Assembly: GCA_944325515.1 (NCBI GenBank)
Contig: CALVAO010000006.1
Span: forward strand, 1-64,000
Direction: 5' to 3'
Source: Candidatus Gastranaerophilales bacterium
GTDB lineage: Bacteria; Cyanobacteriota; Vampirovibrionia; Gastranaerophilales; Gastranaerophilaceae
DNA: 64,000 nucleotides
The notes beneath the pieces are model-generated. The model did not search any database. It was not told the DNA's origin and was given only the letters and a program-made list of their open reading frames with translations. The translations under genes were made by a program, and so were the position numbers. The stretch's first letter is position 1; each line of letters opens with the position of its first letter. Shown in pieces: positions 25,987 to 27,376 of the stretch.

Positions 25987-26019
25987 AGGGTAGACTGAAG
26001 TCTACCTTACTGAAACTAG
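25987..26019. repeat. GGTAGACT hairpin repeat, copy 1
   Basis: GGTAGACT-GA-AGTCTACC followed by TGAAACTAG directly abuts the fic stop codon at 26020. A near copy lies at 27186-27217, so the fic gene with its operator sits between the two. Confidence 0.65.
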
Positions 26020-27066
26020 TTAAAAGTACTTTTCTACAGCAAATTTAAATTGTTCCACAAAAATACGCTTAAAATACTCCAAACTATTATTTTCATAAAA
26101 TATAATGACAGCTTTTTTGTAATCTGTATCTTTAATGCTTCTGTATGACAGAGGACAGTATCCGTATGAATATAAAATAGCATTTGCTAATATCCTGCCT
26201 GTACGCTTGTTTCCGTCTTCAAAAGGCTGTATATATGAAATCATTAAAACCGCAATTAATGCTTTTTCTATTATCCTGTTTGTTTTATTTATAAGTTCAA
26301 CAAGCTTTTCCATTGCTTCTCTTATCTGATGCTTATTTGAAAGCGGTTTATAATTTGTTCCGACAATACCTACGGACGAAGCTCTTAGACCTCTGGGTAT
26401 ATTCATATCAGCAGTTAAGATTTCATGCAGCTCTTCAATTTTTCTAAGAGTTAAATCTTGAAAATATGCTTGATTTCCGAAAATATACTCTATAGCTTTT
26501 TTATGGTTTAAAATCATAACAGCTTCTTCTCTTTTATGCCCTTCAGCTTCAATATTATCTTTTATTAAAACTTCTGTATCGAGAAGTGTATATGTATTTC
26601 CCTCTATTTGTGAAGATTTCCAGCTTAATTCTATTAACAGTCTTTCAAATTCTTTTTTTAGTGCTATTGGAAATAGATTGCTGATATTTTTTCTATATAT
26701 TTGATTTGTCTGTTCTAAATCAGCTAATTCATCGGCGGAAAAAATATTTTGTAAATTATCAAAAATTTCGAAATTAAACTGTTCATACTTAATTTTTCTA
26801 TCATCAAGATTTTGACTAAAATATTCCTCTACATTATACGGTCTTAAAATTTCATTTTTAATAAGACTAAGATAGGTAACACTTCTAGCGTTTCCTGTTT
26901 TATCAATAAGTTTGTTTTTATACAACAAATCTAAATCACGAATTATTGTAACCTTTGAAACATTGTCATATGTTTTATTAATAAATTCTTCTACTTCAAA
27001 GCGTGTTACAGTTTGTTCGCTATTAATAAATTCTAAAATTTTACTCTGTCTTTTGTTCAGTTTCAT
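26020..27066 (-). CDS. Fic-family protein with N-terminal winged helix; catalytic His replaced by Gln
   Basis: This 348-residue protein joins a DeoR-like winged helix (about 1-65) to a Fic domain. The Fic motif reads QPFEDGNKRTGR (280-291): the usual catalytic His is Gln280 while the rest is kept. An inhibitory helix motif S151-xxx-E155-G156 is present, as in class II Fic proteins. Normal Fic proteins AMPylate targets; the Gln suggests lost or altered transfer, and a mainly regulatory role is possible. I start at ATG 27066; a TTG three codons upstream has no better ribosome site. A perfect operator lies just upstream. Confidence 0.82.
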   Translation of the reverse strand: MKLNKRQSKILEFINSEQTVTRFEVEEFINKTYDNVSKVTIIRDLDLLYKNKLIDKTGNARSVTYLSLIKNEILRPYNVEEYFSQNLDDRKIKYEQFNFEIFDNLQNIFSADELADLEQTNQIYRKNISNLFPIALKKEFERLLIELSWKSSQIEGNTYTLLDTEVLIKDNIEAEGHKREEAVMILNHKKAIEYIFGNQAYFQDLTLRKIEELHEILTADMNIPRGLRASSVGIVGTNYKPLSNKHQIREAMEKLVELINKTNRIIEKALIAVLMISYIQPFEDGNKRTGRILANAILYSYGYCPLSYRSIKDTDYKKAVIIFYENNSLEYFKRIFVEQFKFAVEKYF

Positions 27067-27080
27067 ATTTAACAATTTAA

Positions 27081-27127
27081 TTATCGTATCATTTTTATAC
27101 TATTATCGTATCATATTGATACGATAA
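27081..27127. promoter_or_regulatory. Operator of the fic gene
   Basis: A perfect inverted repeat TTATCGTATCA-TAT-TGATACGATAA (27103-27127) and a further half site TTATCGTATCAT (27081-27092) lie 15-61 bp before the fic ATG. On the minus strand the sites flank a possible TATAAA -10. The gene's own winged helix is the natural candidate binder, which predicts autoregulation. Confidence 0.7.
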
Positions 27128-27156
27128 GTTCAATAGTTAGCAGCTTATAGTCAGGC

Positions 27157-27217
27157 AGGGTAAACTTTAGTCTACCAAATAATAAGGTAGACTGAAGCCT
27201 ACCCTGTTGAAACTAGC
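27157..27217. repeat. GGTAGACT hairpin repeat, copy 2 (double)
   Basis: Two small hairpins follow each other: GGTAAACT-TT-AGTCTACC (27159-27176) and GGTAGACT-GA-AGCCTACC (27186-27203), the second followed by TTGAAACTAG as in the copy at 25987-26019. Confidence 0.65.
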
Positions 27218-27219
27218 CG

Positions 27220-27335
27220 ATCAAGCCTTGAAAATTAAATTAGCCTCAATGCCCGTAAAGAAAAGAATCGCGATTTTCTCTTTCTTTGTTAACATATCTT
27301 TCTCTTTTCATCGTTAAAAAGAGAAAGATATGTTA
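27220..27335 (+). repeat. Structured dispersed repeat, copy 2
   Basis: This copy shares TCAAGCC, CCTCAATGCCCGTAA and TTTTCTCTTTCTTT with the block at 24883-25071. It ends in a 19-bp perfect stem (27290-27308 with 27317-27335). The inner 12 bases of the stem arm are identical to the other copy; the outer 7 differ but still pair. With 27157-27217 and the hairpin at 27377-27409 it fills the gap between fic and 27450; I see no gene there. Confidence 0.7.
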
Positions 27336-27376
27336 GAAAAACTTTTTGATTAAATTTATGCAAAACTAAAGTACTA

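Follow-up and report, generated by a model that had tools for sequence, protein, structure and literature searches.

A Winged-Helix Fic Family with Glutamine in Place of the Catalytic Histidine and a Predicted Autoregulatory Operator

General Features of the Locus

The window analysed here, a stretch of 64,000 nucleotides from a Candidatus Gastranaerophilales contig, carries on its minus strand a gene for a 348-amino-acid protein in which a predicted N-terminal winged helix-turn-helix (wHTH) is joined to a Fic domain; a palindromic operator lies immediately upstream. The features referred to in the text are listed below.

26020..27066, minus strand: wHTH-Fic gene, 348 amino acids, start codon ATG at 27066, stop codon included (start preferred by the family alignment)
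26866..27054, minus strand: N-terminal winged helix-turn-helix, residues 5-67 (AlphaFold secondary structure and weak HTH_DeoR matches)
26917..26955, minus strand: predicted recognition helix, residues 38-50, in which K38 and V39 covary with operator letters (AlphaFold and covariation)
26596..26616, minus strand: inhibitory-helix motif SSQIEGN, resembling the class II pattern S/T-xxx-E-G, with invariant Glu (family alignment)
26194..26229, minus strand: Fic motif QPFEDGNKRTGR, residues 280-291, with Gln for the catalytic His (family alignment; FICD aligned by HMMER)
27103..27127, no strand: main operator, a perfect 11-bp inverted repeat with a 3-nt spacer (sequence and family conservation)
27081..27091, no strand: third half-site, at a 22-bp offset, with the orientation of the right arm (minus strand; sequence and family comparison)
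27105..27110, minus strand: predicted -10 element TACGAT (extended TGA), within the right arm of the operator (conserved -35/-10 spacing; constrained right-arm T)
27128..27133, minus strand: predicted -35 element TTGAAC, 17 bp upstream of the -10 element (TTG conserved at this offset)

A TTG codon at 27075 was considered as the start and rejected, the family alignment favouring ATG 27066. That the gene downstream of the operator encodes a winged helix, as the original prediction had it, is borne out by the weak HTH_DeoR match and by an AlphaFold model (built with 37 family members; mean pLDDT 91.6), which gives an N-terminal, DeoR-like arrangement of helices at residues 5-16, 22-33, and 38-50 and a wing formed by strands at 54-57 and 64-67. 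The remainder of the protein matches Pfam PF02661 (1.8e-14) and has the Fic/Doc (Fido) fold, and it carries the class II Fic signature [S/T]xxxE[G/N] in the form SSQIEG, with Glu 155 present in 82 of 82 family members.

The operator at 27103-27127 reads TTATCGTATCA-TAT-TGATACGATAA, with 11-bp arms, a 3-nt spacer, and 0 mismatches, exactly as had been claimed; dinucleotide shuffles of the window (n = 100) yielded 0 such palindromes. The extra half-site that had been proposed 11 bp from the palindrome is likewise present, as TTATCGTATCA at 27081-27091. This element truly stands alone: where a partner arm would lie, the family members show random sequence, which rules out a second full palindrome at 27081-27105.

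Placement of the operator over the likely promoter also holds. Its right arm coincides with the predicted -10 element, the predicted -35 element adjoins it, and this spacing is conserved in the family, where 52 of 66 loci place the TTG of the -35 element 17 bp ahead of TACRAT and six more place it 16 bp ahead. At letter 4 the right arm has T in 64 of 66 loci, whereas the left arm is free there (T in 32, A in 24, and G in nine), a difference that would follow from the right arm alone serving also as the -10 box. Because the operator sits on the core of the promoter, repression would be the simplest outcome of binding.

Two other kinds of repeat occur nearby. A 24-nt inverted repeat (TTTGTTAACATATCTTTCTCTTTT) with an 8-nt loop, at 27285-27340 of the window, separates the fic promoter from the next gene and may be a bidirectional terminator. 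Direct repeats of 31 nt with an internal palindrome (GGTAGACTGAAGTCTACC) flank the fic gene (25989-26019, 27159-27175, and 27186-27216); they were ruled out as mobility signals, being copies of a dispersed, REP-like genome repeat present in dozens of copies.

Conservation of the Operator across the Family

We compared the upstream regions of 80 relatives (46-85% identity) together with those of the window gene and G038, giving 82 loci. The hosts of the relatives belong to more than 10 phyla, among them Patescibacteria, Pseudomonadota, Spirochaetota, Verrucomicrobiota, Synergistota, and Elusimicrobiota. An unconstrained scan for inverted repeats with 9-bp arms proved too noisy, owing to the variable gap and to competing hairpins, and a half-site model, TGNNACRA, was used instead, with a gap of 3 to 5 in the family palindrome. 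By this model a palindrome lies upstream of the gene in 75 of 82 loci compared with 73 of 1,640 mononucleotide shuffles, and a palindrome accompanied by a third half-site in 72 of 82 loci compared with 5 of 1,640, counts that are not independent since the loci are related. The offset of the third half-site is exactly 22 bp in 64 of the 72. Seven of the 82 upstream regions lack a recognised palindrome, and some of these keep half-sites. In Desulfovibrio piger (L071, upstream of 3001), the usual operator is absent and repeated GCGCAAACGGCATGACGATGA-like units are found instead, perhaps a rewired operator.

Covariation between Protein and Operator

Variation in the operator letters tracks variation at two adjacent residues of the protein. 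By mutual information, residue 38 ranks first among all 348 columns for operator letter 7, and residue 39 ranks first among them for operator letter 3. The pairings are simple: K38 occurs with G in 27 of 27 cases and R38 with A in 32 of 39, while M39 is paired with T in all 10 cases and F39 with C in all five, V39 or I39 being found mostly with A, and N39 or Q39 mostly with G. In the AlphaFold model these are the first two residues of the predicted recognition helix.

We also looked for shared changes along a tree inferred from the Fic portion by itself, and residue 38 came out on top once more (p 1.9e-5). With the right arm alone, residue 39 was not ranked first, plausibly because that arm is also the -10 box; when the consensus of the three half-sites and a reduced amino-acid alphabet were used, it ranked first with p 1.6e-5, a value that is optimistic in that this test was chosen after the first result had been seen, the mutual-information ranking having come earlier. 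We regard the covariation as the decisive result, and a well-supported one at the level of sequence comparison, for a protein that reads its own operator. The original prediction would have failed had the site not been conserved with the gene; conservation holds across phyla, and the site covaries with residues of the recognition helix.

Glutamine in Place of the Catalytic Histidine

In the Fic motif of the window protein, IQPFEDGNKRTGR, glutamine occupies the position of the catalytic histidine, a replacement that the first reading of the sequence had overlooked. The motif thus reads QPFEDGNKR and departs from the HxFx[D/E]GN[G/K]R of canonical Fic AMP transferases. In the family alignment, Gln 280, Glu 155, and Asp 284 are present in all 82 members, and the ATP-binding motif and the inhibitory Glu are invariant in the same 82. 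The "nucleotide-sensing Fic architecture" originally described stands in part: apart from its histidine the Fic motif is strictly conserved, as is the inhibitory Glu, but with Gln in the catalytic position one may not presume either AMPylation or nucleotide sensing.

The search seed, QPFEDGNK, could have biased the collection towards glutamine, and the result was rechecked by profile searches free of that requirement. Within the window's phylum, four of four members have Gln, and the lower-scoring Fic proteins examined that have a readable motif have His; within the phylum of G072, eight of eight mid-scoring relatives have Gln, each with an N-terminal wHTH-like stretch.

Targets, Neighbours, and Distribution

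A genome search for further targets, suggested with the original prediction, returned none: with up to three mismatches allowed, the palindrome was found in the 2.1-Mb genome at this locus only, a search that half-site or weaker targets would escape. The half-site TATCGTATCA alone has six further exact matches in the genome. Across 22 other genomes, sites that are perfect or have one mismatch all stand ahead of family genes; one of these genomes has a second family copy, with a second perfect site before it. Extra sites with two mismatches occur in four genomes, near the level expected by chance.

No neighbouring gene is conserved across the 82 loci in a scan of open reading frames of at least 70 amino acids, by which very short partners may be missed; at that size the result rules out an operon or a partner of the type II toxin-antitoxin kind (Doc/Phd, FicTA). 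The family tree mixes phyla with good support and groups the window protein with one from Brachyspira. Members are present in four of 292 genomes of the window's phylum, at about 540 bits, the next best Fic protein scoring below 90 bits. No close relative was found in the viral and phage collections searched. Three genomes of the same genus (L004, L005, and L006) have only a C-terminal piece of 46-54 codons with 78-89% identity, probably a decayed copy in each case; the pieces in L005 and L006 end near contig ends, where cuts by the assembly are possible. An 85% identical gene in a Gastranaerophilales metagenome-assembled genome (L045, 3001-4043), also near a contig end, is broken in two by a frame change near its C-terminus.

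Comparison with Known Fic Proteins

Helix-turn-helix fusions were predicted to regulate fic expression by Kinch et al. 2009 (PMC2686095), and a Fic-HTH autorepressor working through a promoter palindrome was demonstrated in 2022: CccR (YPK_0951) of Yersinia pseudotuberculosis, which also affects other genes (PMC9755527). CccR and the window protein share the combination of Fic domain and HTH in one polypeptide, the promoter palindrome, and a class II inhibitory motif (SARIEG in CccR). CccR differs in that its HTH is C-terminal and its catalytic histidine (H192) is retained; it AMPylates FtsZ and leaves the cell through a type VI secretion system (PMC9755527). The window protein has an N-terminal wHTH and Gln for His, and no secretion context was seen at its gene. 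CbFic2 of Coxiella burnetii is a Fic enzyme with activity controlled by DNA binding through an HTH (PMC10628234); its HTH is C-terminal, it is catalytically active and modifies histone H3, and an operator is not described in the part of that source drawn on here.

The closest solved fold is that of FICD/HYPE (6i7k, Z 26.8, rmsd 4.0 over 252 residues; 6i7l, Z 26.7, rmsd 2.4 over 235 residues), which the family profile also matches at the sequence level. The Fic fold is shared with FICD/HYPE and with Caenorhabditis elegans FIC-1 (PDB 6i7k, 5jj6); the window protein has no TPR domain, and its Gln 280 aligns with the catalytic His of FICD. The window protein also resembles SoFic of PADLOC, a single-gene Fic unit, with an E-value of 9e-22 for a match confined to the Fic domain (profile positions 54-218 of 361) rather than extending over full-length SoFic; Sofic keeps its catalytic histidine (H194 in EcSofic, PMC12249575), which in the window protein is Gln.

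Fic proteins with glutamine at this position were recognised by Khater and Mohanty 2015 as clade D2, bacterial only, with the motif Qx[F/Y]x[D/E][G/V]NKR; they argued that the clade is not necessarily dead (PMC4454073). The window protein has this motif, the comparison being by motif and published description. Clade D2 comprised 45 mostly single-domain proteins (PMC4454073), whereas every member examined here has a wHTH at the N-terminus, and an operator accompanies nearly all of them. Our literature search, thin on subscription journals, found no paper describing a wHTH/Gln-Fic family. What appears to be new is a family of predicted N-terminal wHTH/Gln-Fic autorepressors with a readable operator code, the Gln clade and Fic-HTH autorepression being known already.

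A Model of Autoregulation

Autoregulation by the wHTH-Fic protein, the central claim of the original prediction, is strongly supported by the conservation of the operator across phyla and by residue-operator covariation, both drawn from comparison of sequences. We consider it very probable that the gene is governed by one-gene negative feedback acting through the promoter operator and the third half-site. As we picture it, a wHTH-Fic dimer (dimerisation being expected from knowledge of the family) would bind the palindrome, which spans the -10 box and the spacer separating it from the -35 box, a further subunit would occupy the single half-site two helical turns downstream, and the bound subunits would jointly exclude RNA polymerase, repression rather than activation again following what is known of the family. 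Residues 38 and 39 would read letters 7 and 3, respectively, of the half-site TGNNACRA. The predicted recognition code is that a K38R change would shift preference from TCGTATCA to TTGTATCA, and a V39M change would favour TCGTAACA. Repression might be relieved by binding in the Fic pocket or by a partner, after the manner of a fused toxin-antitoxin autoregulator.

The palindrome could instead be bound by some unrelated regulator acting in trans, or could fold as an RNA hairpin, roles that palindromes can serve; no result of the analysis speaks for either, and both are very improbable, since the operator letters change with residues 38 and 39 of the encoded protein and strong sites occur only at family genes, and a hairpin at -35/-10, upstream of the inferred start, would not be transcribed. 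As to what the protein does apart from controlling itself, a pure transcription factor, with the Fic fold serving as a catalytically dead ligand sensor and other genes reached through weaker or half-site operators, would accord with the change of His to Gln across the whole wHTH-Fic group, with the DeoR-like wHTH, with the action of CccR on other genes (PMC9755527), and with the six other places in the genome where TATCGTATCA has an exact match. We think it unlikely, given that further palindromes at up to three mismatches are lacking in the protein's own genome, that perfect and one-mismatch sites in the 22 other genomes occur only at family genes, and that unrelated neighbours in distant phyla fit no shared regulon.

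An effector resembling a fused toxin-antitoxin unit, its level kept low by the wHTH and its Gln-type Fic domain either still an enzyme, with an altered transfer chemistry or substrate, or a nucleotide-dependent binder, acting on the cell or on phage once derepressed, is quite possible at somewhat less than an even chance. Regulation by itself yields no output when the operator is detected only at its own gene, and in the same direction point the invariance of the ATP-binding motif and inhibitory Glu (82 of 82), the lack of a conserved partner gene across the 82 loci, the patchy distribution (members in four of 292 genomes in the phylum; three genomes of the same genus have C-terminal remnants), the moderate similarity of the Fic domain to that of SoFic (9e-22), a defence Fic, and the case made by Khater and Mohanty 2015 that proteins of the Gln clade are not necessarily dead (PMC4454073). 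Against this stand the replacement of the catalytic His by Gln throughout and the restriction of the match to the Fic domain of SoFic, which itself keeps His. As its own gene is the only one that it seems to control, the protein is probably itself the effector, through what we tentatively take to be an activity of the Gln-type Fic domain. A broader reading, which we put forward tentatively and as somewhat doubtful, is that Gln-type wHTH-Fic proteins are widespread, horizontally mobile, single-gene, self-repressing effectors in which one polypeptide reads the operator, senses, and acts, the Fic pocket working with Gln through either a new chemistry or nucleotide-gated release of DNA.

A cross-phylum family with a conserved operator and a residue-to-base code makes DNA recognition by a Fic protein testable with a few oligonucleotides, and it supplies a first concrete trait for a Gln-Fic clade that has lacked an explanation; that no other targets were detected suggests that the Gln-type Fic domain has an activity yet to be discovered.

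More distant wHTH/Gln-Fic relatives of about 460 amino acids occur in Pseudomonadota (L191-L197 and L201). A search of this clade with a TGGCGC-type pattern was too strict, being informative for two genomes only. Palindromes of another sequence, of the TGGCGC...GCGCCA type, lie upstream of these genes (identified by eye and by a simple scan, without a shuffle test), and we count them in support of the model.
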